23,556 bases of DNA from a virus, in the IMG/VR virus record IMGVR_UViG_3300030328_003218, positions 2,559 to 26,114 of that record. The stretch is one strand, 5' to 3'. Below are positions 354-23,090 of this stretch, piece after piece. The translations under genes and the position numbers were made by a program. Under the pieces are notes generated by a model. That model was not told where the DNA came from and did not search any database. It was given only the letters and a program-made list of their open reading frames with translations. Each line of letters opens with the position of its first letter. The first letter of the stretch is position 1.

Positions 354-359
354 GACTCT

Positions 360-388
360 AGTGTATCACATTTACACGCCTCAAGCAA
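360..388 (-). promoter_or_regulatory. Leaderless promoter for thioredoxin
   Basis: On the minus strand: -35 TTGCTT (383-388), 17 nt spacer, extended -10 TGA-TACACT (360-365), then AGAGTC and the ATG at 353. The expected transcription start falls on or next to the A of the ATG, and no Shine-Dalgarno sequence is present. The same geometry recurs at other operon heads in the window. Confidence 0.65.
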
Positions 389-401
389 GCCATATAATAG
401 C

Positions 402-433
402 AAAAACCCCACCGCCCGAAGACGATGGGGTTT
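402..433 (-). terminator. Rho-independent terminator with UUCG loop
   Basis: Read on the minus strand, AAACCCCATCGTC pairs with GGCGGTGGGGTTT to give a 13 bp stem (two G-U pairs) closed by a TTCG tetraloop, followed by a run of five T that begins inside the stem. It starts 24 nt after the stop codon of the 457-837 gene and so ends that transcription unit just before the thioredoxin promoter. Confidence 0.88.
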
Positions 434-456
434 AAGTAAATCTTTACAGATTAAAG

Positions 457-837
457 TTACGCAACGGCAGTGTTGCCTACGTAACCAACGACGACTGAAA
501 GATCGGCACCATCGGTGCTTGAACCTTTTTGATCTACTTCTAGTTGAAGTACGTCGCCTGCAGCCCAAATCTTAACGTCAGGTAGCGAAGCTGTCACATA
601 AGTGGAGCCAGCGGCTATCGTAGGACGATTTCCTTGGGTTGTGTACATGGTGGTGCCATTTTTGTGCAGGTCTACAATTGCAGTTGCACCAACAGGAGCT
701 GTGACTAGCGCTGCTGTTACAAAAGTAATTTCGCCTGCAAAAGGCATCCGAATAGCTTGCTTACCAGTTGATGTATTCAAATCACCTTTAATGTGATAGT
801 GAAACAATTGGTCGCCTATTACTGCTGAACTTGACAT
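457..837 (-). CDS. Small phage structural protein, paralogue A
   Basis: A 126-residue protein with no signal peptide or membrane segment and an alternating hydrophobic, Gly/Ala/Thr-rich beta pattern, suggesting a small beta-sandwich. I do not recognise a named family; a virion surface or fibre-tip subunit is an inference from composition and position. It is clearly a paralogue of the next gene upstream (865-1242). Both begin MSSSAVIGDQ, share KNGTTMYTTQGNRPTI and WAAGD, and end in GYVGNTA, with roughly two thirds identity by eye. A good Shine-Dalgarno (GAGG, about 9 nt before the ATG) supports the start. It is co-transcribed with its paralogue across a 27 bp gap and is followed by the UUCG-capped terminator. 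It differs from the paralogue mainly in residues 11-25 and around 78-98, which may be surface positions. Confidence 0.85.
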   Translation of the reverse strand: MSSSAVIGDQLFHYHIKGDLNTSTGKQAIRMPFAGEITFVTAALVTAPVGATAIVDLHKNGTTMYTTQGNRPTIAAGSTYVTASLPDVKIWAAGDVLQLEVDQKGSSTDGADLSVVVGYVGNTAVA

Positions 838-864
838 AATTAAACCTCAATCTTTCTGTTAGGG

Positions 865-1242
865 TTACGCTGTGGCAGTGTTGCCTACGTAGCCGATACA
901 TACTGTGAGGTTTGCGCCTGCAGTAGAAGAACCTTTTTGGTCTACTTCAATTGCAAGTCTGTCGCCTGCAGCCCAAGTTAAAACGTCTGGATTGGTAGCT
1001 GTTACTGAAGTACCAGAAACTGCTATCGTAGGACGGTTACCTTGAGTCGTGTACATGGTAGTGCCATTTTTGTTAAGGTCAATTATAGCGGTTGATCCAG
1101 TTGGAGCTGTAGTAACAGCTGCTGTCACAAAACTAATTTTCCCTGCAAAAGGCATTCTAACCTGTTCTTTAACGCCAGTTGATAGGTTGCCTTTGTGTTG
1201 CAACGTAAACATCTGGTCGCCAATTACTGCTGAACTTGACAT
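865..1242 (-). CDS. Small phage structural protein, paralogue B
   Basis: A 125-residue protein, first gene of a two-gene unit and tandem paralogue of 457-837. It has the same N-terminus (MSSSAVIGDQ), the same central NRPTI segment and the same GYVGNTA end. The composition is rich in Thr, Ala, Val and Gly with no charged clusters, typical of small beta-rich virion proteins. The function is not recognised; a decoration, fibre-tip or adhesin role is inference. It starts at the ATG at 1242 with a weak purine stretch (GAAGGTAAGG) 8-17 nt upstream. It is preceded by a leader of about 75 nt from a promoter at 1324-1352 that overlaps the promoter of the divergent plus-strand gene. Confidence 0.85.
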   Translation of the reverse strand: MSSSAVIGDQMFTLQHKGNLSTGVKEQVRMPFAGKISFVTAAVTTAPTGSTAIIDLNKNGTTMYTTQGNRPTIAVSGTSVTATNPDVLTWAAGDRLAIEVDQKGSSTAGANLTVCIGYVGNTATA

Positions 1243-1291
1243 AAGTTTTTACCTTACCTTCATATTAATTGATAAATCGTGATAGTAAATG

Positions 1292-1311
1292 AAAGGAGGA
1301 AAAACTCCCTC
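1292..1311 (-). promoter_or_regulatory. Leader hairpin with anti-SD-like stretch
   Basis: Within the predicted leader of the 865-1242 transcript, minus-strand GGAG (1308-1305) can pair with CTCC (1298-1295), extended by A-U and G-U pairs, around a T-rich loop. The 3' arm reads CCTCCTTTC, which matches the conserved anti-Shine-Dalgarno tail of 16S rRNA. A regulatory role is speculative. Confidence 0.3.
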
Positions 1312-1323
1312 TTTTCTTTCCAT

Positions 1324-1352
1324 ATGATACCACAAATTTGCTTTCAATGCAA
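1324..1352 (-). promoter_or_regulatory. Promoter for the paralogue pair
   Basis: On the minus strand: -35 TTGCAT (1347-1352), 17 nt spacer, extended -10 TGG-TATCAT (1324-1329). The start site is expected near 1317, giving a leader of about 75 nt before the ATG at 1242. It overlaps the plus-strand promoter at 1338-1366 by 15 bp. Confidence 0.6.
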
Positions 1353-1366
1353 GAAACAAGTATAAT
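1338..1366 (+). promoter_or_regulatory. Leaderless promoter for the plus-strand gene
   Basis: -35 TTGCTT (1338-1343), exactly 17 nt spacer, and perfect -10 TATAAT (1361-1366). The ATG at 1373 is 6 nt beyond the -10, so the transcript would start on or beside it. It overlaps the divergent minus-strand promoter, so the two -35 boxes lie within 4 bp of each other. Confidence 0.68.
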
Positions 1367-1372
1367 ATGGAT

Positions 1373-1588
1373 ATGGAAAACAATGAGGGTGCACACGTGT
1401 TCGTCTGTGGCGCAGAAGACGGAACCAAACTACAAGTGTTTATAACTGACACACATTTAGTTCTGGATGCGTTTGATTCAGAGGGAGAACACTTAAGGAA
1501 TATCACTCAAACGTTTGGAGAATGGGTTAAAGAACTTACACCCAGTCCAAGCCCTCAAATCATTGAACCCGTAAAAGATTTTCTTTAA
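1373..1588 (+). CDS. Small protein, only plus-strand gene
   Basis: A 71-residue acidic protein (N-terminus MENNEGAHVFVCGAEDG) of unrecognised function. It shows short beta-like stretches (VFVCG, LQVFITDTHLVL), a FGEWVKEL helix and a proline-rich tail. There is no signal peptide, membrane segment or known motif. An upstream in-frame ATG at 1367 would add two residues, but it overlaps the transcription start region; the 6 nt spacing used by other leaderless genes in the window points to 1373. No Shine-Dalgarno site is present. Its stop codon overlaps the stop of the convergent 1585-1782 gene by two bases. A gene of its own, read against all its neighbours from a strong promoter, is more likely regulatory or an early or accessory gene than a virion part, but that is inference. 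Confidence 0.7.
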   Translation: MENNEGAHVFVCGAEDGTKLQVFITDTHLVLDAFDSEGEHLRNITQTFGEWVKELTPSPSPQIIEPVKDFL

Positions 1589-1782
1589 GAAAACTTATCT
1601 TCGTCTTGCCATGCGGAAATGCCAGTGGGAATTACCGAGAACGAAAAGTTTTTTGCTTCTTCAAGAGTAAACCGAGTTGCATCTGCTTTTGTGCCCCAGT
1701 CATTTGCTGTTGTTGACCAATAATACTTGTTCTGTTCTTCGGGTTGCTCAGGGTTCTCTGCGTTTACTATGATTAAAGCCAT
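1585..1782 (-). CDS. Small protein downstream of S74 fibre
   Basis: A 65-residue acidic protein of unknown function. It has an aromatic segment, YYWSTTANDWG, followed by a probable helix (FTLEEAKNF). The start is secure: AAGGAG lies 6 nt before the ATG and overlaps the stop codon region of the S74 fibre gene immediately upstream, so the two are translationally coupled. Its position right after a fibre gene would suit a fibre accessory or assembly protein, but nothing in the sequence proves this. It ends tail-to-tail with the plus-strand gene, with overlapping stop codons and only a weak AT-rich inverted repeat (TTTTC/GAAAA) at the junction. Confidence 0.8.
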   Translation of the reverse strand: MALIIVNAENPEQPEEQNKYYWSTTANDWGTKADATRFTLEEAKNFSFSVIPTGISAWQDEDKFS

Positions 1783-1792
1783 GTTTTTCTCC

Positions 1793-4333
1793 TTACGCTG
1801 CCTCTAATGCGGCAACCTTTGCTTCTAAAGATTCTATACGATCTTTCTGATCTTTGCAAATTTTGATAAGCGGTGCTGTGAGCATTTCGTAGTAAACAGA
1901 CCGTGGAGTTTCACCCCAATGACCTTCATCATAACGTACTGCATACTCAAATCCTGAGTTGTGGAGACTTTCAGCCGATAAACCTGCTTCAAGAGGAACC
2001 GAAGAATCGTCATCAATGCCTCTAAACTTAATAGGTCTAGCGTCTAGTACTTGATACGCTTCGGCTAAGGGTAGGTCTACAATGTCTTTTTTGAAACGCT
2101 CGCTGGATGTGTACTCCATAACCTGTCGGTCAGAGTCTCGTGAACGTAGCGTCCAATAACCGCCTGATGAGAACGTTGATCCTTGACCTAAATAGAAGTG
2201 GTTCCAAGCAGCACCAGAAGCACCCAAATTCAAACCCTCATTAGAGTAAGGGCGCAACTCAGCAGCACTCAAACGTAACTCATACGCACCAGCAACATGC
2301 CAATACATGTAAGAACCCGGTGCAAACGAATACATCTGACCACCTGCATTTTCATTTTTAAAATACATGTCGTCATTAGCAGGATACCCCATGTAACCAA
2401 ACCGAGCGTTACTGTCATTGTAGTATGCATGATACACAGACTGATCTCCAGCGGTAGTGTTGTGTAGTTCAAGTGCTGAAGAAGTACTGTAAACCTCAAA
2501 TGCGCCAGAATTTGCGCAAACCTTAAAATGACTTAATGCAGTGTTATTACCAAACTTAACATCGCCTCCGTCGGTTTGAAGGTGTAGATCACCCATGGTA
2601 GAATCATCGGATTTTGAAATGATTTCGTTACCGTCAAAAGATAGATGCTGACCTGTAGTAGCACCTATAGTCAAAGCACCATCAGAAGTGTCACTACCTG
2701 TATCAGTCGTATCAGTAAGCACCAACTTTGGCATGGTTACTTCGCCTGTCTCATTAATCTCCATTGCGGTATTTGTGATACCGCTTGCGTAGGAGTTTGA
2801 CGTACCAAACACTAAATGCGAGCCAGTGCCGTCAAACATCGCAGCAATTCTGACATGAGGTGCGGTCTGGTCATCTTGATAAGATGCCTCAACAAGGGAA
2901 ACATAGTTACCTGCCGAGTAGTCAGACTGATCAACTCGCAGACCTTCGCCATCTACGGTTCCTGTGAATGTTGAACCGAGTTTGTTGGTCGTGACGATAT
3001 TGAGGGGAGTCTCAGGCGACGCAGTGCCGATACCGACATTGCCACCACTCAATATGCGCATACGTTCAGTGTCATTGGTTATAAAACGGGTATCGTGGGC
3101 TGAACTAGTTCCAAATAATGCGGTATTACCGCTATCAGAACCGATGTAAGTAGTGGCTGTGCCGTTCAAAGATCTAAAGTATGCGGCACCAGATGCAGTA
3201 ACTACGTCTAACCTGTTTTCTGACTCGTCATAAAGCATGTAAGCACCTGAAGCAGCACCAAAAAACTTAACATCATGACCAGTGTCATCAACACCAACAG
3301 TGAACGGAACTTTAGCAGTTAAATTAGAACCATCGTAAGTAAAGTTAGCATCAGCCCCAAAGGAGCCATTGTTATTAAACTGAACTTGATGATCTGAGCC
3401 ACCCGGTGATCCTCCACCACCAGAAGCATTTTCCCAAGCCACTCCGCTTCCTGTTGAAGTTAAAACTTGTCCATCGGAGCCTTGACCACCATTAACTTTG
3501 AAATTAACTGCATCTACAGTGTCTTTAACAATCAAAGCGTCTGCTGATTCATCCCACAGCATGTATTTACTAGCTGTAGCTCCAAAGAACTTCACATCAT
3601 AACCTGTGTCATCAACACCAACATTTAATGCGGCATCTAATTGTAATGTTTTGTGAATTGTTGTTTGTACAGATCCACCATCTACAGTAATATATGCTGT
3701 TTCTCCACCACTTCCATCGTCTGAACTCAATACGATATCACCATCTGTATTGTAATTAGTTATCTGGATATTACCAGTAGTTTCACTTATTTGTAAATTA
3801 CTTCCGGTATGTTTTATGTTCCCGTCTCCACCTGCCTTACTACCGAGAGTTAGTTTTACATTATCTACTAATGCTAGAGAGTCTTCACTTTCATCCCATT
3901 CCATGTACCTTCCAGATGTTGCACCAAAAAACTTAACGTCTACGCCAGTGTCATCCACACCAAAGGTGGTAGCACCATCTATTTGAATAGTGCCAGCGAC
4001 TTCCAAACCAGTGCCGTTTATCAACTTAAGTGCGTCAGACGTAAAACGAGCAGAAATATTATTTGAACCAGCTTTTTGATGAGCAATCTCAATGATGCCA
4101 TCTTCAGAACCATCCGAAGCATCATCAATCTTACCAGTTATCTTTGCATAAATAACTTTCTGATCATTATCATTCTCACCTTGAAACTTTATCTGACCTA
4201 TATAGTCTGCATCAGCAGGGCTAGCGCTATTTCGGTAAAGTTCAATTACAGGACCAGCAGAAGACCCAGCATCAGTACTTGTATGCGTAACAGTGCTCTT
4301 AAAATCTACTTCTGATAAAAAATCTCTAGCCAT
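1793..4333 (-). CDS. Tail fibre with S74 autoprotease domain
   Basis: An 846-residue tail fibre. Seen: the N-terminal part is Gly/Ser/Thr/Asp-rich. Three repeats of about 32 residues (about 124-155, 238-269, 346-377) share VDDTG.DVKFFGA and YM.WDES. A linker around 306-330 reads GGSDHQVQFNNNGSFGAD, and an RMRILSGGNVGIGT segment lies at about 424-437. The last 104 residues (from about 743) match the peptidase S74 intramolecular chaperone: SSERFKKDI at the cleavage site, GLSAESLH, VYYEMLTAPLIK, and a C-terminal coiled coil (RIESLEAKVAALEAA). Known for S74: the domain trimerises the fibre and then cuts itself off, using a serine at the junction and a nearby lysine, both present here. So the mature fibre probably ends near residue 743. 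It is preceded by its own extended -10 promoter and a GAGG Shine-Dalgarno. The host receptor cannot be read from the sequence. Confidence 0.93.
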   Translation of the reverse strand: MARDFLSEVDFKSTVTHTSTDAGSSAGPVIELYRNSASPADADYIGQIKFQGENDNDQKVIYAKITGKIDDASDGSEDGIIEIAHQKAGSNNISARFTSDALKLINGTGLEVAGTIQIDGATTFGVDDTGVDVKFFGATSGRYMEWDESEDSLALVDNVKLTLGSKAGGDGNIKHTGSNLQISETTGNIQITNYNTDGDIVLSSDDGSGGETAYITVDGGSVQTTIHKTLQLDAALNVGVDDTGYDVKFFGATASKYMLWDESADALIVKDTVDAVNFKVNGGQGSDGQVLTSTGSGVAWENASGGGGSPGGSDHQVQFNNNGSFGADANFTYDGSNLTAKVPFTVGVDDTGHDVKFFGAASGAYMLYDESENRLDVVTASGAAYFRSLNGTATTYIGSDSGNTALFGTSSAHDTRFITNDTERMRILSGGNVGIGTASPETPLNIVTTNKLGSTFTGTVDGEGLRVDQSDYSAGNYVSLVEASYQDDQTAPHVRIAAMFDGTGSHLVFGTSNSYASGITNTAMEINETGEVTMPKLVLTDTTDTGSDTSDGALTIGATTGQHLSFDGNEIISKSDDSTMGDLHLQTDGGDVKFGNNTALSHFKVCANSGAFEVYSTSSALELHNTTAGDQSVYHAYYNDSNARFGYMGYPANDDMYFKNENAGGQMYSFAPGSYMYWHVAGAYELRLSAAELRPYSNEGLNLGASGAAWNHFYLGQGSTFSSGGYWTLRSRDSDRQVMEYTSSERFKKDIVDLPLAEAYQVLDARPIKFRGIDDDSSVPLEAGLSAESLHNSGFEYAVRYDEGHWGETPRSVYYEMLTAPLIKICKDQKDRIESLEAKVAALEAA
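3203..3964 (-). repeat. Three fibre repeats of about 32 residues
   Basis: In-frame repeats at 3869-3964, 3527-3622 and 3203-3298 encode VDDTG.DVKFFGA...YM.(W/Y)DES units. A fourth, more divergent copy (VGSDGSGADVTFHSAT, FLWDASEEKL) lies in the next fibre gene at about 6012-6107, so the unit is shared between two fibres. Confidence 0.8.
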
Positions 4334-4372
4334 GTTATAGGGTTCCTCTGGTAAAAATTAACTTCTTCCCAT

Positions 4373-4381
4373 ATTATAGCA
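4373..4381 (-). promoter_or_regulatory. Extended -10 promoter for S74 fibre
   Basis: On the minus strand TGC-TATAAT (TATAAT at 4373-4378) is a perfect extended -10. No good -35 is seen at 16-18 nt. The expected start near 4367 gives a leader of about 33 nt with GAGG before the ATG at 4333. It lies immediately after the hairpin at 4383-4416. Confidence 0.6.
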
Positions 4382-4382
4382 C

Positions 4383-4416
4383 AAGGGGTGAAGCCAAATC
4401 ATTGACCTCACCCCTT
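4383..4416 (-). terminator. Strong hairpin ending the tail operon
   Basis: On the minus strand, AAGGGGTGAGGTC pairs with GGCTTCACCCCTT (13 bp, two G-U pairs) around an 8 nt loop, starting 24 nt after the stop of the 4440-7169 fibre. There is no T-run; the hairpin runs straight into the -10 of the next promoter. It could be a terminator, a processing or stability hairpin, or a partial read-through point. Confidence 0.65.
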
Positions 4417-4439
4417 AACGGTATGCAATGGCAGCAAAA

Positions 4440-7169
4440 TTATCCGATAATTACGACCTTATATGCGTTGCTAGAAGGCGCAGAAGCGAACGTGAACGTT
4501 ACAGCGTTAGTGCTGGTACGATCCACCTCACAAACCACAGTTTCTAAGCTAGACGCATCATACACTTCACAGATAACATCATTAGTTCCCAAGCTGTGGG
4601 TTACAGCGATAGCTGTAGCAGACCCATCACCAATAGTTCCAGTGACCTTAGTTGTGGCACCTAAATTAGAACGAGCAGCAGCCGCAGTTGAAGCGCCAGT
4701 ACCACCGTGGGCAACAGCGACATCTGTCGCCGCCCATGTACCAGTGGTGATTGTTCCAACTTCAGTAAGTGAAGAAGTAACAACAGTAGACTTTAACTCA
4801 GTTCCAGTCAAAGTCCCTGCAGCAGCGGTAACTGTAATAGCTGCTGTGCCATCAAAATCAACGCCGTTAATAGCTCTAGCAGTCGCCAAAGCCGTGGCTG
4901 TAGCGGCATTTCCAGTTGTGTTTTGGTTACCAGCAGAGTTCACACCCGGAAGATCAATATTGGCGCTACCATCAAATGAAACGCCACCTATTGTTCTAGC
5001 AGTGGCCAACGCTGTAGCCGTTGCCGCATTTCCAGAAGTATTTTGATTACCTGCAGAGTTTACACCCGGAAGGTCAATGTTCGCAGAGCCGTCAAATGAC
5101 ACGCCACCAATATTTCTCGCTGTTGCGAGAGCGGTAGCAGTAGAAGCGTTACCAGTTAAAGCAGCGGTAACGCCAGTGGTTGTGAGCATTCCAGTGCTTG
5201 GGTTGTAGTTGAGTCCTGTGTCTGTTTCAATGCCTTGCGCCCCAGTAGCTCCATCAACAAAAGTTAAGTATACTGTTTCGTTACCTGAGTTATTTGCGCT
5301 AGCTGTAACGTTCGTGGCAGTTGTTGCAGTGTCAGCATTACCAGTTACATCACCAGTTACTGCACCCTCAAGGGTTCCAACCACAAGTGTTGCAGCGGCA
5401 TATCCAGTACCACTAGTATTAACAGTAGTTGTTGGCTCTGCCTGTAAGTCTTTAAAGAGTTTAAACTTGCCGCTGTCATTAGCATCACGGAAAATACCAG
5501 CGTAAAGATCTTGAGATCCGCTTGTATCGTACAGTCCGTAGAAACCAATGTCTACTGAGTCAGCGCTAGTGTTTCCTTTAGCGAGTTTAATCAATGGGTC
5601 TTCAACTGACAACGTAGCAGTATTTACTGTAGTTGTGTCTCCGTTAACTGTAAGGTCACCAGAAATGGTAACATCATTTGGTAATCCAACAGTTATCGCA
5701 CCAGTTGAAGCAGAAACCTCAACCTCATTAGCGGTCCCAGTAAGTGAGGTTACACCATGAGCGTTAATTCTGTCATCTATAGCTGCTGAAGTCATTAACG
5801 ACGTGTCGTTATCGGCAAAAGATTCACCAGATGTTTGAACTGTCGTAAGGCCAACACTATCAAAAGTAAACGTGTCAGTAGCTTGAATTGTTATTCCACC
5901 ATTAGCGGTTAGTAAGCCGCCTACAGTAGCTGTGCCATCTACAGTCAAGTTGTCAGATATGTCAACGTTTCCGTCAGCGACCTCAAGGGCGTTTGCTCCA
6001 TTGGTACCTGTGATTACAAGCTTTTCTTCTGAAGCGTCCCAAAGGAAGCTGTCTCCTGATGTGGCTGAATGGAAAGTAACGTCAGCGCCTGAACCATCTG
6101 AACCAACGGTTAAAGTACCACTGGTCGTTAAAGATGTAAGAGTTCCTACGCTTGTCAACGAAGATCCAACTACGGTTGATTTAAGCGAGGTTCCAGTCAA
6201 TGTTGTAGCAGCGGCTGTTACGGTTATATTTGCGGTACCATCAAAAGAAGTACCATTTATGGTTCTTCCCGTAGCAAGGGCGGTAGCGGTGGCAGCGTTT
6301 CCAGTAGTGTTCTGATTACCTGCGGAGTTAACTCCGGGCAAATCAATATTTGCAGAGCCATCAAAACTTACACCACCAATAGTTCTAGCTGTTGCCAAAG
6401 CTGTGGCCGTTGCAGCGTTTCCTGAAGTGTTTTGGTTACCAGATGAATTAACACCCGGAAGATCTATATTGGCTGTTCCATCAAAAGAAACACCGCCAAT
6501 ATTTCTGGCAGTTGCTAAAGCTGTAGCAGTAGCAGCGTTTCCAGTAATATCGCTGGAGGTAAACGCTACAGTTCCTGAAGAGTTGGGGAAAGTTATTGTT
6601 CGGTCAGCAGTCGGATCAGTTATAGCGAAAGTTGTTTCGTATGAGTCTGCCGTGGCTCCCTCAAAGACAAGAGGCGACGCCGCAGAGAAAGTAGCAGATG
6701 TGAAAGAAGGTGAAGCGTCAACGTTAAGGGTAATAGCTCCAGACGATCCTCCACCATTAAGATTAGTGCCAGCAGTAACTCCTGTTATGTCGCCCTGTGG
6801 GGCTAAAGCCGCAATAGCAGCAGCCGTAACAGTTTTTGGAGTATCGCTGTCGTCCGTATCGGCAATGATTACTTTATCATCAGATGCAACTGTAGCAGTA
6901 GAAAGGCCAGTAGGCGCAAAGTTAACAGTAACAGTACCAGAAGTACCACCACCAGACAAACCAGTTCCCGCAGTAACTCCAGTAATATCACCTACAGCTT
7001 GTAAGCTTACCCACCCTGAACCATTATAAACATAAAGTTCATTGTCTCCAGAGTCATAATAAATCTGTCCAGCAGTAGGCGATCCGGGGGCAGTCCCAAG
7101 GTTTTGTACTTTAGCATTCTGAAGCTCATTTTTATTGAGATCCAGATTTACTAAAAATTTCTGTGCCAT
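4440..7169 (-). CDS. Repetitive long tail fibre
   Basis: A 909-residue fibre, last gene of the tail operon. The N-terminus (FLVNLDLNKNELQNA, then GQIYYDSGDNELYVYNGSGW at about 35-53) is typical of the virion-attachment end of phage fibres. The body holds two blocks (about residues 210-343 and 673-806). Each has three 40-residue units built on ATALATAR.IGGVSFDG and ANIDLPGVNS.GNQNT, followed by a shared LKSTVV.SSLT segment. Such FDG.ANI units resemble phage tail-fibre repeats. A VAHGGTGASTAAAARSNLGA motif (about 818-837) precedes a compact C-terminal domain (about 843-909, IGDGSATAIAVTHSLGTNDV, ending YKVVIIG), probably the receptor-binding tip. No S74 domain or chaperone is visible inside it. 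TAGGAG 8 nt before the ATG supports the start. Long antisense reading frames over this gene are composition artefacts. Confidence 0.92.
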   Translation of the reverse strand: MAQKFLVNLDLNKNELQNAKVQNLGTAPGSPTAGQIYYDSGDNELYVYNGSGWVSLQAVGDITGVTAGTGLSGGGTSGTVTVNFAPTGLSTATVASDDKVIIADTDDSDTPKTVTAAAIAALAPQGDITGVTAGTNLNGGGSSGAITLNVDASPSFTSATFSAASPLVFEGATADSYETTFAITDPTADRTITFPNSSGTVAFTSSDITGNAATATALATARNIGGVSFDGTANIDLPGVNSSGNQNTSGNAATATALATARTIGGVSFDGSANIDLPGVNSAGNQNTTGNAATATALATGRTINGTSFDGTANITVTAAATTLTGTSLKSTVVGSSLTSVGTLTSLTTSGTLTVGSDGSGADVTFHSATSGDSFLWDASEEKLVITGTNGANALEVADGNVDISDNLTVDGTATVGGLLTANGGITIQATDTFTFDSVGLTTVQTSGESFADNDTSLMTSAAIDDRINAHGVTSLTGTANEVEVSASTGAITVGLPNDVTISGDLTVNGDTTTVNTATLSVEDPLIKLAKGNTSADSVDIGFYGLYDTSGSQDLYAGIFRDANDSGKFKLFKDLQAEPTTTVNTSGTGYAAATLVVGTLEGAVTGDVTGNADTATTATNVTASANNSGNETVYLTFVDGATGAQGIETDTGLNYNPSTGMLTTTGVTAALTGNASTATALATARNIGGVSFDGSANIDLPGVNSAGNQNTSGNAATATALATARTIGGVSFDGSANIDLPGVNSAGNQNTTGNAATATALATARAINGVDFDGTAAITVTAAAGTLTGTELKSTVVTSSLTEVGTITTGTWAATDVAVAHGGTGASTAAAARSNLGATTKVTGTIGDGSATAIAVTHSLGTNDVICEVYDASSLETVVCEVDRTSTNAVTFTFASAPSSNAYKVVIIG
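4752..5153 (-). repeat. Fibre repeat block 2 (three 40-residue units)
   Basis: Encodes residues about 673-806 of the long fibre: three tandem 40-residue units plus the LKSTVVTSSLT tail. Its protein sequence is very close to block 1 (6141-6542), but many third codon positions differ. Confidence 0.85.
6141..6542 (-). repeat. Fibre repeat block 1 (three 40-residue units)
   Basis: Encodes residues about 210-343 of the long fibre, duplicated as block 2 about 1.4 kb downstream in the gene. The two blocks are the same length and in the same frame, so they arose as a unit duplication of about 400 bp. Confidence 0.85.
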
Positions 7170-7182
7170 TAGTATTCTCCTA

Positions 7183-7662: not shown

Positions 7663-7664
7663 GG

Positions 7665-8621: not shown

Positions 8622-8633
8622 ACTGTTGCCGCC

Positions 8634-9641: not shown

Positions 9642-9653
9642 TATAAATCTCCT

Positions 9654-10661: not shown

Positions 10662-10694
10662 TTTGGATTAATCCTTTCCTCTAAATATATTGTA

Positions 10695-14540: not shown

Positions 14541-14552
14541 ATTTTTCTCCTA

Positions 14553-16454: not shown

Positions 16455-16463
16455 AATTTATCC

Positions 16464-16766
16464 TTATTGAAACGTAACCATAATGTCAGTTAGACGACCA
16501 GACGTTTCAACTATGTCTACTTCATCTATAACTATGTCAGTGTAGTATTCAGCGAAAGTTTCTAAAAACTCGCCAGAATCAAACTTTGCGAAAACAGGGT
16601 CTTTTATTCCAAAAGTAGGAAACATTGTTCGTTCCCCTTTTTCTGTCCGCAAAAATGCTTGTACTTGCTCGGCCTTATACGTGTCTGTGGAGCTATTTAC
16701 CGTCCCAAAACGGGCATTATTCGGATCTATACGAAACGGGTATGATAGAACAAATTGCACCGCCAT
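16464..16766 (-). CDS. gp25/gpW-like baseplate wedge protein
   Basis: A 100-residue baseplate wedge protein of the T4 gp25/P2 gpW-like family. Seen: the family signature in the centre (AEQVQAFLRTEKGERTMFPT, then FGIKDPVF, about residues 32-60), with the conserved GER and FP.FG turn, a following acidic helix (SGEFLETFAEYYTDIVIDEV) and a beta terminal strand (LTDIMVTF). Known: this protein is a lysozyme-like fold without activity that joins sheath-tail tube to wedge and is a hallmark of contractile-tail systems. It precedes the J-like and protein I-like genes in the usual order. GGAGG 7 nt before the ATG is the best Shine-Dalgarno in the window. Confidence 0.9.
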   Translation of the reverse strand: MAVQFVLSYPFRIDPNNARFGTVNSSTDTYKAEQVQAFLRTEKGERTMFPTFGIKDPVFAKFDSGEFLETFAEYYTDIVIDEVDIVETSGRLTDIMVTFQ

Positions 16767-16829
16767 GTTGTAACCTCCAAAAAAAAGACCTTCATATACA
16801 TTCTACCGTAAAAAGGCACCCTACTGCTA

Positions 16830-17168
16830 CTACTCAGACGCCGCCTTTACCGACGACAGCCAATCCTTAAATGCTGGGTCATCAACAGGCATAACTGTGA
16901 ATTGTACTAAATCAACATCCCATGGAGAACCGCTCATTGACCAAGCGCACTCAATAGAATGCTGGGCCGGTAATATCCCTGCGTTAACTTCTAATCCGTA
17001 GGTGTTTACAAAATAAGTAAAGATGCAGCCGTCTATTCCTTCGTGGAAACACGCTGCATCTTTATCATTTGCAAAGGGGCAAATCTCTGCTGTTACTTTA
17101 ACTTGGGATTTATCCACCCATAATAACATCCTGTGCCCGTCAGGATTCCATTCAAACTCAGTTGTCAT
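16830..17168 (-). CDS. Cysteine-containing tail-operon protein, unknown
   Basis: A 112-residue protein of unrecognised function. It has a beta-like start (TTEFEWNPDGHRMLLWVDKS, VKVTAEICPF) and four cysteines (about residues 30, 40, 48 and 74) in an ICPF...AACFHEGIDGCIFTYF...ECAW layout that could form disulfides or a metal site, but it is not a recognised zinc motif. There is no signal peptide or membrane segment. It sits just upstream of gp25-like, so a baseplate or tail role is plausible. It overlaps the upstream coiled-coil gene by 11 bases and has only a weak Shine-Dalgarno, which suggests coupled translation. A 63 bp gap follows before the gp25-like gene, with no clear promoter. Confidence 0.72.
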   Translation of the reverse strand: MTTEFEWNPDGHRMLLWVDKSQVKVTAEICPFANDKDAACFHEGIDGCIFTYFVNTYGLEVNAGILPAQHSIECAWSMSGSPWDVDLVQFTVMPVDDPAFKDWLSSVKAASE

Positions 17169-17355
17169 CTTCTGGTGGTGGCTCTTCCTCTTTATGGTTC
17201 GCCATCATATGCAAATCTTCATTTACTCCCTGCATATGCTCTATAGTCTTAGTAGCAACAACTAATTGTGCTTTTAAGTCAACAACAGTCCGTTTGGCAG
17301 TAGCCAACTCTTCCCATAAAACGTCAGCTAAAACACCTTCATCATAGGAAAACAT
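17158..17355 (-). CDS. Small coiled-coil protein in tail operon
   Basis: A 65-residue protein with a probable long helix (VLADVLWEELATAKRTVVDL, KAQLVVATKTIEHMQGVNED) of heptad character and an acidic, proline-containing tail (HKEEEPPPEDDN). There is no enzyme motif or membrane segment. Its function is unknown; a small assembly or bridging protein is one possibility. The start is secure: ATG overlaps the upstream stop (TAATG) and AGAGGT lies about 9 nt before it. Its end overlaps the next gene by 11 bases, so it is part of a tightly coupled group at the head of the tail operon. Confidence 0.78.
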   Translation of the reverse strand: MFSYDEGVLADVLWEELATAKRTVVDLKAQLVVATKTIEHMQGVNEDLHMMANHKEEEPPPEDDN

Positions 17356-17699
17356 TATCGTGTTACCTCTGGAATTAAGTTAAAGTCGCCTTCAACCACT
17401 CTCTCAACTACACCACCAGAGCTTGTTATTTCAAGATCGTACACGCCACCATCTGTTAAGGCAGCGGTATCAGCAGCAGTGATGCTTAAAGAGATCTCTC
17501 CGGAAGAGTTAAGTGTCATTCTACCATTTGAAGTGCTCAACTCAATTAAAGCAGATGTACTACTAACCCTTTTTCTTACCTGCATTTTACCAGTATAAGA
17601 ACTAAGGTTTCTTGCAGTACCAGAACTGTCTTTAACAGTAAGGGTACGTGAAAAGGTCGCTCCCTGTTCACATATGATATCGTATTCTCCAGCGCTCAT
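17355..17699 (-). CDS. First gene of tail operon, paralogue of 7665-8003
   Basis: A 114-residue beta-rich protein, likely the first gene of the long tail operon. Its layout (MSAGEYDIICEQGATFSRTL, then YTGKMQVRKR, IELSTSNGR, ISLSITAADTAAL, YDLEITSSGG, RVVEGDFN) matches the shorter paralogue at 7665-8003. I recognise the pattern as a common small phage virion-type family but cannot name it; a baseplate or fibre-connector role is inference. AAGGAG, 6 nt before the ATG, sets the start, and a TATAAT on the minus strand lies 28 nt upstream of the ATG. The gene downstream begins at its stop (TAATG). Confidence 0.85.
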   Translation of the reverse strand: MSAGEYDIICEQGATFSRTLTVKDSSGTARNLSSYTGKMQVRKRVSSTSALIELSTSNGRMTLNSSGEISLSITAADTAALTDGGVYDLEITSSGGVVERVVEGDFNLIPEVTR

Positions 17700-17726
17700 A
17701 ATATTCTCCTTGAGGGTTCTTAAGAT

Positions 17727-17732
17727 ATTATA
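17727..17732 (-). promoter_or_regulatory. Candidate -10 for the tail operon
   Basis: A perfect TATAAT on the minus strand, with start expected near 17720 and AAGGAG before the ATG at 17699. No convincing -35 at 16-18 nt (TGAGTT is the best) and no extended -10, so a dedicated sigma factor or activator could be needed. A weak CCTTA/TAAGG hairpin lies just upstream, at 17733-17748. Confidence 0.45.
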
Positions 17733-17752
17733 CCTTAATCACCTAAGGGAAC

Positions 17753-17947
17753 TCACTTAGAACTAGTAGACTTCTTAGATGATTTCTCTTCTTCATCAAT
17801 GGCAACTTCAGAAACCTGAACTAACATCTCTTGAAGTTGTTTCATACCAGCACGCAACATAGAGTTGTCAGCAGTCAACTGCTTAATCTGATTTAGAAGA
17901 TCATCAATTACTTCATTTGGATTAATGTTTAAATTTGTATCACTCAT
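17753..17947 (-). CDS. Small coiled-coil protein with its own promoter
   Basis: A 64-residue protein of unknown function. Residues about 12-48 form a probable amphipathic helix (NEVIDDLLNQIKQLTADNSM, GMKQLQEMLVQVSEVA) and the C-terminus is a charged, Ser/Lys-rich tail (EEEKSSKKSTSSK). There is no HTH or enzyme motif, so it is more likely an oligomerising partner than a DNA-binding protein. It has a promoter of its own with a near-ideal -35 and a palindrome over the -10, and the start codon sits 6 nt after the -10, which fits leaderless translation. It lies between the sigma factor and the tail operon; a role in the late switch is possible but unproved. Confidence 0.78.
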   Translation of the reverse strand: MSDTNLNINPNEVIDDLLNQIKQLTADNSMLRAGMKQLQEMLVQVSEVAIDEEEKSSKKSTSSK

Positions 17948-17953
17948 AATTAT

Positions 17954-17982
17954 ATTTTATCCTTTCAGGATAACTGTGTCAA
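17954..17982 (-). promoter_or_regulatory. Leaderless promoter of coiled-coil gene
   Basis: On the minus strand: consensus -35 TTGACA (17977-17982), 17 nt spacer, -10 TAAAAT (17954-17959), then ATAATT and the ATG at 17947. An AAAGGA lies 12 nt before the ATG, too far for a usual Shine-Dalgarno. The -35 begins 4 nt after the sigma factor stop codon. Confidence 0.72.
17957..17973. promoter_or_regulatory. Palindromic operator candidate
   Basis: TTATCCT-TTC-AGGATAA is a perfect inverted repeat with 7 bp arms and a 3 nt centre, lying over the spacer and the upstream edge of the -10 of the 17954-17982 promoter. Bound here, a dimeric repressor would block RNA polymerase. The regulator is unknown; the winged-helix proteins at 21906-22677 are candidates. 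Confidence 0.5.
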
Positions 17983-17986
17983 CCCC

Positions 17987-18901
17987 TTATTCCATGTTCT
18001 CAAAGCTAAACGCCCACGCCACACCTGATGCAGGGTGTCTCAGGCGAGCAATCGCTTTAGCTTCTAACTGTCTAACTCGCTCACGAGTCAAGCCCATTCG
18101 TTCCCCAATTTCTTGTAAAGTCAACGCATGCTCTTCCTCACCTAAACCATGATGCATTTTCAAAACTTGCAATTCTCTCTCAGGTAGAACAGACAAGGCA
18201 TCCATAATGGATTGTGCAAAACTAGCTTCCATACCTGCTTCTTCCACATTGATAGCATTTGGATCAATTAATGTGTCAACATGCTGTAAAGAGCTACCCT
18301 CTGTTATCGCATTATCTATAGATTCAAGCCTAGTGTTTTCCATATGAGACCAAACATTATCTAATTTATCAATATCCCACTCAAGGAAATAGGCTAAATC
18401 TTTACGATTAAACCCGTCTTCTCTAGACTCAAACTCCTCAACAACTGCCGCTAGCTTACGCACATCAGCCTCAACATGCATAGGTAAGCGTATAGCCCTG
18501 CCACTATTTGCTATCGCACGCTGACACGCTTGACGGCACCACCATGTTGCATAAGTAGAAAATTTAAACCCACGCTCAGGATCAAACTTATCTACAGCAC
18601 GCATTAGGCCAATCGTGGCCTCTTGAATCAAATCTTCGTATTCCATACGTGTTTGTGAGCGAGAATAACGAGCTGCAGTGTCCATAGCTAGACGTAAATT
18701 ATGTTCAACAAAGGTATCTTTTGCTCTTTTGCCCTCTTTAATTGCCGCTTGAAGTTTTCTACGAGACCTAACATCAGGGGTCTCACCTAAAGCTTCAAGT
18801 TTAACTTGCGCTTCAACACCCTCAATAACAGCACGTCCTAAAACTGTCTCTTCTTCTCTACTAAGTATTCTGTGTTTAGAACTCTCAACGTAACCTGCCA
18901 T
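17987..18901 (-). CDS. Sigma-70 family RNA polymerase sigma factor
   Basis: A 304-residue sigma factor of the primary (sigma-70) type that would redirect host RNA polymerase. Seen: region 1.2 at about 10-27; region 2 at about 60-140, with FVEHNLRLAMDTAARY, EDLIQEATIGLMRAVDKFD, and the region 2.3-2.4 block GFKFSTYATWWCRQACQRAI (about 111-130) then RAIRLPMHV; region 3 at about 145-185; and region 4 at about 225-290, with LPERELQVLKMHHGL and the helix-turn-helix LTLQEIGERMGLTRERVRQL (about 260-279). The strong match of 2.4 and 4.2 to primary factors suggests it recognises promoters near TTGACA/TATAAT. The Cys at WWCRQ replaces the usual Ile. The start overlaps the stop of the small 61-residue gene (TAATG), with AAGGAG about 9 nt before it. 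Phage-encoded primary-type sigma factors usually drive middle or late genes. Confidence 0.95.
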   Translation of the reverse strand: MAGYVESSKHRILSREEETVLGRAVIEGVEAQVKLEALGETPDVRSRRKLQAAIKEGKRAKDTFVEHNLRLAMDTAARYSRSQTRMEYEDLIQEATIGLMRAVDKFDPERGFKFSTYATWWCRQACQRAIANSGRAIRLPMHVEADVRKLAAVVEEFESREDGFNRKDLAYFLEWDIDKLDNVWSHMENTRLESIDNAITEGSSLQHVDTLIDPNAINVEEAGMEASFAQSIMDALSVLPERELQVLKMHHGLGEEEHALTLQEIGERMGLTRERVRQLEAKAIARLRHPASGVAWAFSFENME

Positions 18902-19086
18902 TACTTCTGCTCCTTCTGCTGATCTAGCGTATTCGCTAATGACTTAATAAAAATCTTACCTAAGCTTTTGTGTTTGCTTTGGTAAGCCGGATGTCGCCGC
19001 TTAGCGGCTTCTCTTTCTAGATGTATATATGAATCATCTTCCAAGCTATATGCTCCCTTTTTGCTGTAAAACGTGCCTAAAAGCAC
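18901..19086 (-). CDS. Small protein coupled to the sigma factor
   Basis: A 61-residue basic protein of unknown function, with a start at GTG (19086). The start is chosen because the GTG sits 6 nt after a strong -10 and there is no Shine-Dalgarno site. It shows a charged helical segment (HLEREAAKRRHPAYQSKH) and a C-terminal KSLANTLDQQKEQK. It ends in a TAATG overlap with the sigma factor, so the two are co-translated. Being small, basic and ahead of a sigma factor, it could be an anti-sigma or sigma-partner protein, but no family match is visible, so this stays speculative. Confidence 0.7.
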   Translation of the reverse strand: MLLGTFYSKKGAYSLEDDSYIHLEREAAKRRHPAYQSKHKSLGKIFIKSLANTLDQQKEQK

Positions 19087-19092
19087 CTATAA

Positions 19093-19121
19093 ACTATACC
19101 ACATACAAAACATTTTGTCAA
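19093..19121 (-). promoter_or_regulatory. Leaderless promoter of the sigma operon
   Basis: On the minus strand: consensus -35 TTGACA (19116-19121), 17 nt spacer, extended -10 TGG-TATAGT (19093-19098), then TTATAG and GTG at 19086. It is the strongest sigma-70-type promoter in the window. Confidence 0.8.
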
Positions 19122-19144
19122 GCCCTTTTCTCAAGTTTTGTAAG

Positions 19145-19177
19145 AAAAAAATAAGTTTTGTTAATAACCCTCAACTT
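19145..19177 (-). terminator. Weak candidate terminator after DNA polymerase
   Basis: On the minus strand, AAGTT (19177-19173) can pair with AACTT (19157-19153) around a 15 nt loop, with a T-run at 19151-19145 just after. The stem is only 5 bp and AT-rich, so this may be only an A/T-rich spacer. Two copies of minus-strand CAAAACTT lie at 19153-19160 and 19133-19140. Confidence 0.3.
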
Positions 19178-19182
19178 TTGCT

Positions 19183-21111
19183 TTAAAACGTAGCTAATTC
19201 TGTCTCTTTTATGTGATTTACTAGCGTTTCATCTCCAAACTGCAAACGATCCTCATTTTTTATCGCAATTTGGGTGTGTTCGCCCTCTGTATATAACGTA
19301 CCCCATGAATCTCCACCAAGTTCAGGGTCAGATGATATATGGATATCTTTCAATATCATCTCCATAGTGACACCTGCTTCTCTGCATAAATCTTCAGCCA
19401 AATCACTTGGGAAAGAGAAAAGTATCTCGTCATGGATCGGTAATAACGCATAGTCCCAATAACCACTTGCCGCTAATTTTACCATAGCCCTACCTAAAAC
19501 ATCTCGTGCCGTAGACTGTATGCAGTAGTTTAAAGCAGCATAAGGCCTGTCTGAATCAACAGGCAGCTTACGTCCAGTATGGGTTATTACATAGTTTCTC
19601 ACTCCCTTTTTAACTGGAGCCGCTAATTGATGCGAAAACTGAGTAACCCCCTTATAAGTTGAGTCAAACAAATCACATACTTTTTGAGCTTCGTCAATAG
19701 ATAAACCTGATTGTCTCGCTAAGGTCTTTGGACCAGCACCATAAACTTTACCAAAGTTAACCGTTTTTGCGATTTTTCTTGTGACCCCGGTGTTGTCAGC
19801 AGTTGTTTGATGTAAATCTCCGCCTTGTTTGAAAACATCTAACATAACAGAATCCTGTGAAAGAGCGGCTAAAACCCTTAATTCAACTCCAGAGAAGTCA
19901 ATTGAAGCCATTCTGCACCCCTCTTCAGCTAAAAACATACGACGTATAGCATCATTACCAGAAGGTAACTGCTGTAAAGGAGGGTGACTAATTGACATTC
20001 TACCAGTTCTCGCATGAAGGCTGTTGATTTTTGGGTGAACCCTGCCATTGGAATCCATGTTTTCTAGCGATGCAATCACATAAGTGTCACGCCACTTAGC
20101 ACTGTTCTTTGCTGTCATAACTGCTGTAGCCAACTGTGCGGCATCCTTATTTGAAGGATCATCCGCTATAGCGTTTAAAATTGTTTTATCAACTTTAATC
20201 GCACCTGAAGCTGTAGTTTCTAGTAATTTAACGCCCATGCCTTGTAAAGCAGCGGCAACATCTCTTGTAGCATTATGGTTATTTACCCCAAACCCTCTAA
20301 CTATTTCTATGCTTTGTTTTTCATCATCCGTCATTTTTTGAACAAGTTTTTCAGCATACTCAACATCAATACGCATTCCTCTGCGTTCCATTTCTGCTAC
20401 AAGTAACATCAACTCGTGCTCATATTTAACTAAATGCCCCATAGTCTGACGATTTATCTCGTCTCTAAGTTTAGGGTACAAGCGAGCAGTTAATACCACA
20501 TCCATACCCGCATAATGAACCATAGTTGGGTGTGAGGCCGGTATCTTGCGCCAACCGTCCTTATCACTCCAACCATTCTCTTTAAAAATCTTTTTTAAGG
20601 CTGATTGTGAATCAGGAGCGGACTTATCAACGTGAAACGCAGCTAAGTTCTTTAAGCCATGACCCACACCACCTTCAACCCTACTGCGTGGGTCCGCTAA
20701 GTGGGAGAGTATCTTTGTGTCAAATGTTCGCTTCAAAATGTCTATGGCATCAACGTGCCCATGCCTATCTAGACCTAAAGCGTCGTATGATGCGTTGTGG
20801 GCTAGTAGCCTATAGTCAGTTTCATTCATGACCATATCTATAGATTTCTGGAACCAAGGCTCACCCCAAATAAAGACAAACGCTTCAGAAGTGTCACCCC
20901 ATTGAATGCTCTTTATCTCCCAAGTTGGGGCGTAGGTGTCAAGACCAGTTGCCTCAATGTCATACGCTAATGGTCGTTTTCTGTCAAACAACCATTCTGA
21001 AAAAACTCTAAACTCTTCGTCCGAGCGCACAAGGGTAACCTTCTGCATTGGAGTGTCTAGAATGTCTTGTTCGTGTAACCAGTCGTCAAATAATGTTATA
21101 TTGTCCGCCAT
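19183..21111 (-). CDS. Family A DNA polymerase with 3'-5' exonuclease
   Basis: A 642-residue replicative DNA polymerase of the Pol I/T7 type, without a 5' nuclease domain. Seen: exonuclease motifs YDIEATGLD (Asp51, Glu53), LLAHNASYD (Asn106, Asp110) and HYAGMD (Tyr200, Asp204). The polymerase has motif A SIDFSGVELR (Asp405, Glu410), motif B TRKIAKTVNFGKVYG (Arg445, Lys449, Phe453, Tyr457) and motif C LPIHDE (about 557-562, His560, Asp561). All catalytic residues are present, so it should both polymerise and proofread. The position matching E. coli Pol I 762 is Phe, seen in many virulent phages. Motif A reads DFSGVELR where DYSQIELR is usual. It begins in a TAATG overlap with the upstream exonuclease, with only a weak Shine-Dalgarno, so it probably depends on coupling. 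The thioredoxin at the other end of the window could be a partner, as in T7, but no thioredoxin-binding loop was identified. Confidence 0.96.
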   Translation of the reverse strand: MADNITLFDDWLHEQDILDTPMQKVTLVRSDEEFRVFSEWLFDRKRPLAYDIEATGLDTYAPTWEIKSIQWGDTSEAFVFIWGEPWFQKSIDMVMNETDYRLLAHNASYDALGLDRHGHVDAIDILKRTFDTKILSHLADPRSRVEGGVGHGLKNLAAFHVDKSAPDSQSALKKIFKENGWSDKDGWRKIPASHPTMVHYAGMDVVLTARLYPKLRDEINRQTMGHLVKYEHELMLLVAEMERRGMRIDVEYAEKLVQKMTDDEKQSIEIVRGFGVNNHNATRDVAAALQGMGVKLLETTASGAIKVDKTILNAIADDPSNKDAAQLATAVMTAKNSAKWRDTYVIASLENMDSNGRVHPKINSLHARTGRMSISHPPLQQLPSGNDAIRRMFLAEEGCRMASIDFSGVELRVLAALSQDSVMLDVFKQGGDLHQTTADNTGVTRKIAKTVNFGKVYGAGPKTLARQSGLSIDEAQKVCDLFDSTYKGVTQFSHQLAAPVKKGVRNYVITHTGRKLPVDSDRPYAALNYCIQSTARDVLGRAMVKLAASGYWDYALLPIHDEILFSFPSDLAEDLCREAGVTMEMILKDIHISSDPELGGDSWGTLYTEGEHTQIAIKNEDRLQFGDETLVNHIKETELATF

Positions 21112-21875
21112 TATGGTACAATCTCTGGTCGCTCAACCTTCTCAGCCAATCTAGTACGACTATAACTTCTACAGTCGTTACATTGGAATTGGCGATATGT
21201 AGCAACCTTTGTATACTGATATCCTCTGTATTGAATATTACTTGAACCACACGTTGGGCAATTTGAAGAACCAGTAAACACATTTAAGTTCGGATGGTTA
21301 TTCATCCAAGGACGTAACTCTTTGTACACTTTTACGAGAAGATCCACGTCTTGCTTGGCATATTTTTTCATAGTTTTCCAAGCTTTCACATCTCCTCGCA
21401 TACAACCAGCCCATGTCTCAAAACCACCTGTATCAACTTTTTCGCCTAAGCCTAAATGTTGTCCAAGATGGTTTAACTTATTGCTATTAAACATAAAGTG
21501 CCGTCTTGCGACCTTTAAAGTGTCAACTGACTTAGGCTTTGAAGGAGGTCCAAATCCGTGGACTATAAACCGAGCGTTCGCTTTACGCATATCAAACTTG
21601 TCGCCATTATGAGCGACAACAACATCAGCCTCATCAAATAACTCCCACATCTTTTTAGCAACATGATAGTCGTTCTCTGGGTCTTTTTTATATGCTTCCT
21701 TGAAATCATCTAAAGCGCAAACATGCGTCTTACGCTCGCCTTCCCATTTATACGAAACACATAAAAGATACCATTCCCTGTCATGGGCAATAACATTCTG
21801 TTCGTACTGGCCCCATACATATGCAAGGTTTGGCGCTGTCTCAATATCATAATACAACACTCTTGGCTTACTCAT
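21111..21875 (-). CDS. DEDDy exonuclease with C-terminal zinc ribbon
   Basis: A 254-residue exonuclease of the RNase H-like DEDD superfamily, first gene in the polymerase operon. Seen: motif I YYDIETAP (Asp10, Glu12), motif II VVAHNGDKFDMRKANARF (about residues 86-103; Asn90, Asp95) and motif III KYAKQDVDLLVKVY (Tyr172, Asp176). The C-terminal part (about 205-240) has CPTCG and CNDC (Cys206, Cys209, Cys232, Cys235), a four-Cys zinc ribbon that should bind DNA or a partner. This pattern predicts a 3'-5' exonuclease. The polymerase next door already has its own proofreading domain, so this one may serve repair, recombination or end trimming. A TTGCCT promoter with extended -10 TGC-TATAGT and an AGGAGAGG Shine-Dalgarno lie upstream. 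Confidence 0.9.
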   Translation of the reverse strand: MSKPRVLYYDIETAPNLAYVWGQYEQNVIAHDREWYLLCVSYKWEGERKTHVCALDDFKEAYKKDPENDYHVAKKMWELFDEADVVVAHNGDKFDMRKANARFIVHGFGPPSKPKSVDTLKVARRHFMFNSNKLNHLGQHLGLGEKVDTGGFETWAGCMRGDVKAWKTMKKYAKQDVDLLVKVYKELRPWMNNHPNLNVFTGSSNCPTCGSSNIQYRGYQYTKVATYRQFQCNDCRSYSRTRLAEKVERPEIVP

Positions 21876-21904
21876 TAAATACCTCTCCTAAATCCTCTAC
21901 CTAC

Positions 21905-21933
21905 ACTATAGCACATTTGTAGCCATAAGGCAA
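21905..21933 (-). promoter_or_regulatory. Promoter of exonuclease-polymerase operon
   Basis: On the minus strand: -35 TTGCCT (21928-21933), 17 nt spacer, extended -10 TGC-TATAGT (21905-21910). Start expected near 21898, giving a leader of about 23 nt with AGGAGAGG before the ATG at 21875. The -10 overlaps the stop codon of the upstream winged-helix gene. Confidence 0.68.
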
Positions 21934-22163
21934 GTCTTTAAGCGTTGAATGTCTTCCAACTCTGAAAATCCTTCTGCCGCATGGAATATTGTGCGCCTAC
22001 TTTTTCTTGTCTTTGTTAGTATACCTTCTTTGACCAAACGGTCAAGTGACCGCCAAACATGCTGGTAACGCATTCCAAGATTATCCGCAATTTCTTTTTG
22101 CGTCATTTCTGGATGCTCCAACACTGCCAAAAGAACCCTTGCGTTAACTGTCAGGATTCTCAT
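21906..22163 (-). CDS. Winged helix-turn-helix regulator
   Basis: A small DNA-binding protein, likely a transcription regulator. Seen: a helix-turn-helix block (VLLAVLEHPEMTQKEIADNL, then GMRYQHVWRSLDRLVKEGIL) and a basic wing (TKTRKSRRTIFHA), the layout of MarR/ArsR-type winged helices. There is no ligand pocket or metal site visible. The start is uncertain: a TTG at 22187 would overlap the upstream gene by 44 nt, and ATG codons lie at 22172, 22169 and 22163; I give 22163 because the folded domain starts just after it, making it 85 residues. It overlaps the 3' end of the 22144-22677 gene, so it is translated with it. Confidence 0.8.
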   Translation of the reverse strand: MRILTVNARVLLAVLEHPEMTQKEIADNLGMRYQHVWRSLDRLVKEGILTKTRKSRRTIFHAAEGFSELEDIQRLKTCLMATNVL

Positions 22164-22677
22164 CGTCATCATACGATATTGACTCAAGGACCGACAACGA
22201 AAGGTCCATTTCCTTCAATTTAGATTCAAGTATGTTAGCCTTTTCAAGGGCAACATTTAATTTACCTGAAGTTTCCGCTAACGTGCCACATAGAAAAATT
22301 ATTTTTTCTTCGGTACTGCTAAGAGAAGCTAACTTATCATAAATATCTGTGTCAATAACACCGTATGATTCCGCTTGTCTGGTTACGAGCGCTCTATAAG
22401 AAGTCAGGCTTTCTTGGAACCTCTGATCTACCGTAGCAATATCAACCAGCGTAGGCTCAAAGTTATCTCCAACGGAAATAACAGAACCTTCTCTAACCAA
22501 AATCCCCGCTTCAACAAGTGGATCTACAGCACGATGAACCCAATTTTCATCTGTGCGAAACGTTCCTTCTTTAGCGATTATTAAATTTATTGCACGTAAA
22601 AGAGAGTCATCATCTCTATCCATCTGGCTAGAACCAGCGTCCTTAACGTGCCACTCTTTGTTACTATTTTGTTCCAT
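22144..22677 (-). CDS. Predicted winged-helix and coiled-coil protein
   Basis: A 177-residue protein of unrecognised family. About residues 25-70 look like a winged-helix fold (DDSLLRAINLIIAKEG, WVHRAVDPLVEAGILVREGS), and the C-terminal half has a helical stretch with heptads (about 129-165, AETSGKLNVALEKANILESK, KEMDLSLSVLES) ending in an acidic tail. This suggests a dimeric DNA-binding protein, but no family is recognised. It is first in a two-gene unit with the winged-helix regulator. The ATG at 22677 sits 6 nt after a TAGTAT -10 and there is no Shine-Dalgarno, so it is probably leaderless. Confidence 0.75.
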   Translation of the reverse strand: MEQNSNKEWHVKDAGSSQMDRDDDSLLRAINLIIAKEGTFRTDENWVHRAVDPLVEAGILVREGSVISVGDNFEPTLVDIATVDQRFQESLTSYRALVTRQAESYGVIDTDIYDKLASLSSTEEKIIFLCGTLAETSGKLNVALEKANILESKLKEMDLSLSVLESISYDDDENPDS

Positions 22678-22683
22678 GAAGGT

Positions 22684-22712
22684 ATACTACCCGAATATGG
22701 TTACTTTGTCAA
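22684..22712 (-). promoter_or_regulatory. Leaderless promoter of the regulator pair
   Basis: On the minus strand: consensus -35 TTGACA (22707-22712), 17 nt spacer, -10 TAGTAT (22684-22689), then ACCTTC and the ATG at 22677. No Shine-Dalgarno. The -35 lies just before the 3' end of the nuclease gene. Confidence 0.68.
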
Positions 22713-23078: not shown

Positions 23079-23084
23079 AGCTAT

Positions 23085-23090
23085 AGTATA
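23085..23090 (-). promoter_or_regulatory. Possible leaderless -10 of the nuclease
   Basis: Minus-strand TATACT lies 6 nt before the ATG at 23078, the same distance as in the other leaderless genes. No good -35 (CTGTAG at 17 nt) or extended -10 is seen, so this is the weakest member. Confidence 0.4.

Follow-up and report, generated by a model that had tools for sequence, protein, structure and literature searches.

Several genes in the viral DNA analysed here begin exactly six nucleotides downstream of a sigma-70-type -10 hexamer, a spacing that raises the question of whether their mRNAs lack a leader and, if so, whether leaderless starts are a rule for the operon heads of this phage or belong to particular genes. 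In the established geometry of sigma-70 promoters, a -10 hexamer ending 6 nt before a start codon places +1 on the first base of that codon. The analysed stretch (the window; 23,556 nt) comprises bases 2559-26114 of a 37,204-base virus record, with a GC content of 0.43. Nearly all of its genes lie on the minus strand, the lone plus-strand gene being at 1373, and its content includes long, probably structural genes as well as genes for a sigma-70 factor, a family A DNA polymerase, an exonuclease, a winged-helix protein, an SNase-like protein and thioredoxin. Two adjacent similar genes (457-837 and 865-1242), whose products both start with MSSSAVIGDQ, are likely a tandem duplication. With the phage sigma factor, which carries conserved regions 2 and 4, as query, 25 relatives were retrieved from IMG/VR at 68-94% identity; because the next matches drop sharply to 39%, these sigma-bearing relatives constitute a tight family. 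A search of cellular genome contigs found no cellular or prophage relative of this sigma factor. Some members of the family exceed 100 kb, so the 37,204-base record is probably partial.

A preliminary description of the window proposed that five genes, starting at 353, 17947, 19086 and 22677 on the minus strand and at 1373 on the plus strand, share one layout consisting of a -35 hexamer, 17 nt, a -10 hexamer, 6 nt and the start codon. When the boxes were read base by base, every hexamer, spacer and gap proved to be as described. A sixth site, at 23078 on the minus strand, had been credited with the -10 spacing and no -35, and this too was found, as TATACT-6-ATG with a best -35 of just 2/6 matches. 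The sites and the features around them are as follows (SD, Shine-Dalgarno).

3..353, minus strand: thioredoxin gene, running off the window (PF00085, E 3.9e-26)
354..388, minus strand: predicted leaderless promoter of the thioredoxin gene, TTGCTT (383-388)-17-TACACT (360-365)-6-ATG
1338..1372, plus strand: promoter of the lone plus-strand gene, TTGCTT (1338-1343)-17-TATAAT (1361-1366)-6-ATG
17753..17947, minus strand: gene for a 64-aa coiled-coil-like protein, function not assigned (PHROG 1399/9321)
17948..17982, minus strand: predicted leaderless promoter of the 64-aa gene, TTGACA (17977-17982)-17-TAAAAT-6-ATG
17987..18901, minus strand: phage-encoded sigma-70 family factor, SD-led (PF04542/PF04545, PHROG 351)
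19087..19121, minus strand: strong promoter ahead of the 61-aa/sigma operon, TTGACA (19116-19121)-17-TATAGT-6-GTG, the GTG probably not being the start (comparison with relative L002)
21905..21933, minus strand: counter-example, exonuclease promoter TTGCCT-17-TATAGT with a leader and an AGGAG site
22144..22677, minus strand: gene for a 177-aa protein, family not assigned; the structural model (pLDDT 80.2, pTM 0.52) has an N-terminal domain resembling a winged helix and, at the C terminus, a long helix
22678..22712, minus strand: predicted leaderless promoter of the 177-aa gene, TTGACA (22707-22712)-17-TAGTAT-6-ATG
23079..23090, minus strand: weak site, -10 TATACT at 6 nt from the SNase-like gene (22716-23078), no -35

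The hexamers and their 17-nt spacing fit a SigA-like sigma-70 promoter, in which TTGACA- and TATAAT-like boxes stand 16-18 nt apart, and three of the sites match the consensus at 10-11 of 12 positions; the -35 of 353 and 1373 is the weak TTGCTT, which agrees with TTGACA at 3/6. The gene at 1373 has a second in-frame ATG at gap 0 (1367). A TANNNT motif whose first T lies about 12 nt before the start codon is found at the five sites and at 23078, and in the relatives it peaks sharply at gap 6. Across the full 37,204-nt record, the geometry occurs at 6 of 44 gene starts vs 0 of 3,719 non-start ATG, GTG or TTG codons. Outside the window, the same record holds three more cases, C1:1596 (minus), C1:26460 (minus; GTG, spacer 16) and C1:34486 (minus). 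When the record and its 25 relatives were taken together, 60 distinct strong promoters were located close to gene starts, and 29 of them had a gap of 6 nt; the runner-up, a gap of 14 nt, accounted for 4. Loci reached through a search with the record's ferredoxin contained further leaderless gene families with the 17- and 6-nt spacings, some of them in records of family members. A broader search for TTGACA-17-TATAAT-6-ATG carries no weight here, since its result is poorly separated from that of a gap-9 control: among the matches listed, 78 of 120 ATGs open frames of at least 50 aa in the scan and 57 of 121 in the control. The geometry is real and is conserved in relatives.

The strongest and decisive case for a conserved, predicted leaderless geometry is the 177-aa gene at 22677. 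Its promoter occupies nearly the whole of a 38-nt intergenic gap, and the arrangement TTGAC(N), 17-18 nt, TANNNT, exactly 6 nt, ATG recurs in all 24 records with readable upstream DNA (spacer of 17 in 21 records and of 18 in 3), so that the -10-N6-ATG spacing looked for in related phages is indeed conserved there. The 19 distinct upstream sequences show no variation in TTGAC or in the T, A and last T of the -10, against an identity of 0.29 across the spacer; an SD of at least 5 bases precedes the start in none of the 24 records. Searches of the phage collection, Pfam and PHROGs matched nothing to the protein itself, whose alignment is highly variable. A Foldseek search with its structural model returned no match at E 0.001, and VIA-align matched numerous winged-helix entries at Z values no higher than 6.6, which is insufficient for assigning a family. 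A candidate operator just upstream of the -35 was rejected, as in the aligned sequences it reads as the last codons of the SNase gene upstream (GGKR-stop).

The same comparison extends to two further genes. The thioredoxin gene has its -10 at 6 nt in 6 of the 7 relatives that possess it, the seventh (L608) being leadered with an AAGGAG site, and 10 of 22 homologues of the 64-aa gene retain the same geometry, some of the others being SD-led. The gene at 1373 has the boxes and lacks the conservation: its sole homologue resides in the L002 record at 99% identity and so lends no independent support. Across relatives (L602-L607), the -35 of the thioredoxin promoters is mostly of a TTGCNT type and not TTGACA, which hints at two -35 classes; a TTGCNT-type -35 at the exonuclease gene was set aside as confounded, since it apparently lies inside the coding end of the preceding gene. 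A strong intrinsic-terminator-like hairpin with a TTCG loop (minus strand, 404-433) lies where the structural operon ends, immediately ahead of the thioredoxin promoter. The thioredoxin gene contains a run of undetermined residues just beyond the window edge, and it clusters with other redox genes, for ferredoxin and a peroxiredoxin-like protein (record 811-2911 and window 3-353).

Could such a layout arise without selection for leaderless translation? Chance, or the composition of an AT-rich genome, might be suspected from unrestricted consensus scans of the window, which came near the shuffle expectation (43 vs 37), but the absence of the geometry from every non-start codon and its complete conservation among orthologues at one gene leave such an artefact exceedingly improbable. 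A more serious, though still unlikely, alternative is compaction alone, whereby promoters squeezed into minimal gaps would bring the start codon beside the -10. This accords with the 177-aa gene, where 20 of 24 records have an intergenic gap of 32-44 nt, just the length of one promoter, and where the -35 starts no more than a few bases from the upstream stop codon. Packing, however, does not readily account for a start-codon gap of precisely 6 nt throughout, instead of 3-9, nor for the thioredoxin gene, which keeps 6 nt within a 103-nt gap in the window that leaves room for a leader; short gaps, moreover, also precede SD-led genes.

The base at -1 provides a further indication. It is C or T in 33 of 36 leaderless-type starts vs 107 of 184 SD-led starts (Fisher p 5e-5), which fits a start-site preference reported for M. 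tuberculosis (PMC3898074). As to Shine-Dalgarno sites, their proposed absence stands for 353, 1373 and 22677. At 17947, an AAGGA about 12 nt upstream overlaps the -10 and would be usable only if transcription started further upstream, and at 19086 the proposal fails if a TTG at 19044 is the start. Genes inside operons mostly do use SD sites, as had been described. Leaderless initiation is thus well supported, as a prediction from sequence, for 22677 and 353, and for 17947 in those relatives that keep the site, by the fixed spacing, the -1 pyrimidine and the -10 spacing of the likely host discussed below; as a general rule it does not hold.

Several sites show where the rule gives way. At 19086, relative L002 (94% identical) keeps both the promoter and the GTG, yet the GTG frame stops after six codons there, whereas an AAAGGAG site, the TTG at window position 19044 and the downstream coding sequence are all conserved. 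The GTG is therefore probably not a real start, contrary to the preliminary description, and the gene is more likely leadered and translated from the TTG. A conserved GTGC-loop-GCAC hairpin (19044-19092; also in L609) lies between the sigma-operon promoter and the TTG; in the relative a run of T comes directly after it, and it might have a role in the leader. At 23078, the -10 is kept in the window's own record (G000), L002 and L005 among 17 homologues, so the spacing stands and its conservation does not. Among relatives, the -10 of the exonuclease gene shifts with respect to the start codon, from a distance of 6 nt to one of more than 15 nt. Finally, of 13 starts in the window that follow a gap of at least 27 nt, six are preceded by a -10 at 6 nt; the other seven, which lack it, include SD-led operon heads at 21875, 17699 and 16766; leaderless starts are thus no rule for operon heads. 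From the exonuclease drift and these counts, the fixed spacing is seen to be a property of particular genes and not of all promoters of the virus family.

Comparison with the likely host bears on how these starts would be read. The record's ferredoxin matched almost only Actinomycetota among the cellular genomes searched, mostly Acidimicrobiia MAGs, and its DNA polymerase is nearest to those of actinophages; judging from these two genes, the host is most likely a marine member of the Acidimicrobiia (Actinomycetota). No sigma match was found in 32 phage records with similar ferredoxins, many of which are fragments. In Acidimicrobiia loci from the ferredoxin search, with gene starts called mechanically, 96 of 934 genes have TANNNT at gap 6, which is 42 times the background. 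Two separate genomes, one at a phage-like GC, gave 13 of 90 and 16 of 113, and a third, smaller sample 5 of 80, so that about 6-14% of genes carry this spacing, far above background. Control loci from other sigma-encoding phages and of cyanophage type had gap-6 TANNNT at 0.8 times background with no peak. Since the likely host shares the -10 spacing and other sigma-encoding phages lack it, the phage appears to use host-style leaderless initiation. The match covers the -10 spacing and not the whole promoter, because host leaderless genes have no TTG -35 (0/96, 0/13 and 0/16), whereas 36 of 54 phage leaderless starts carry one. The -1 pyrimidine preference was not seen in the two small host samples.

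We consider it highly probable that, in the style of the host, these sigma-70-type promoters produce transcripts without a leader ahead of the first gene in some transcription units of a phage that most likely infects marine Acidimicrobiia. Transcription would start at the A of the start codon or no more than two bases from it, from promoters recognised by the host's primary sigma or by the phage's own, and ribosomes would bind straight to the start codon at the 5' end, as they do on many actinobacterial genes; downstream genes of each unit would be translated from SD sites. The near-consensus -35 added by the phage may lend these promoters greater strength than that of host leaderless promoters with a -10 alone; this is plausible because a -35 placed 17 bp upstream raises leaderless expression in Deinococcus (PMC12340547).

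That -35 could instead suggest the phage's own sigma factor as the main reader of the promoters. In favour of this, regions 2 and 4 are conserved in the sigma-70 factor that the family encodes, and the strong -35 of the phage sites is missing from the leaderless genes of the host; TTGACA-17-TATAAT, however, should be readable by any primary sigma, and the same kind of promoter precedes the sigma operon, making the scheme circular unless host sigma reads that promoter. We regard it as improbable. Somewhat less probable still is a distinct promoter class, combining host-style leaderless spacing with a full consensus -35, that the phage sigma would use to express a conserved regulator, along with a handful of further genes, without reliance on SD-based translation. 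Equally doubtful is the idea that leaderless and SD-led genes form expression classes, translation of the former shifting relative to the latter as ribosomes or initiation factors change during infection. The putative regulator of 177 aa is leaderless in every relative and structural genes are SD-led, and in M. tuberculosis the two kinds of genes differ in functional distribution (PMC3898074), but SD-led operon heads exist, several genes are leaderless in some relatives and not in others, and the leaderless set also includes the thioredoxin gene and one for a putative lipoprotein. Host-style gene architecture in a compact genome is the simpler reading.

If host-style leaderless initiation is correct, a phage family without cultured members uses its likely host's style of translation at specific genes, with the spacing kept over deep divergence. 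This would give better start codons for these genes and a weak host clue for metagenomic phages, and the contrast between a gap that is fixed at one gene and drifts at another offers a natural means of probing the role of leaderless starts in a phage.

Comparable arrangements are known. Leaderless SigA-like promoters (PL1, PR2 and PL2) were predicted in Cluster O mycobacteriophages (PMC4351075), and the likeness rests on 22677, 17947 and 353, at the level of sequence; those phages are cultured and unrelated, whereas the present geometry was traced through about 25 uncultured relatives. In Deinococcus-Thermus, a -10 motif next to the ORF gives leaderless expression (PMC12340547), a system of cellular genes in a different phylum that resembles the phage sites in having the -10 adjacent to the start. 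Among actinobacteria, TA-led leaderless genes, with TANNNT about 12 bp upstream of the start and no SD, make up about 20-26% of genes (PMC3160421, PMC3898074); they share the -10 spacing with the phage, which has a conserved -35 where the host promoters have none. As leaderless genes are common in actinobacteria and were already predicted for some actinobacterial phages, this is not a new kind of system; what is new is its conservation across a diverse uncultured family and the -35 that sets the phage apart from its likely host.
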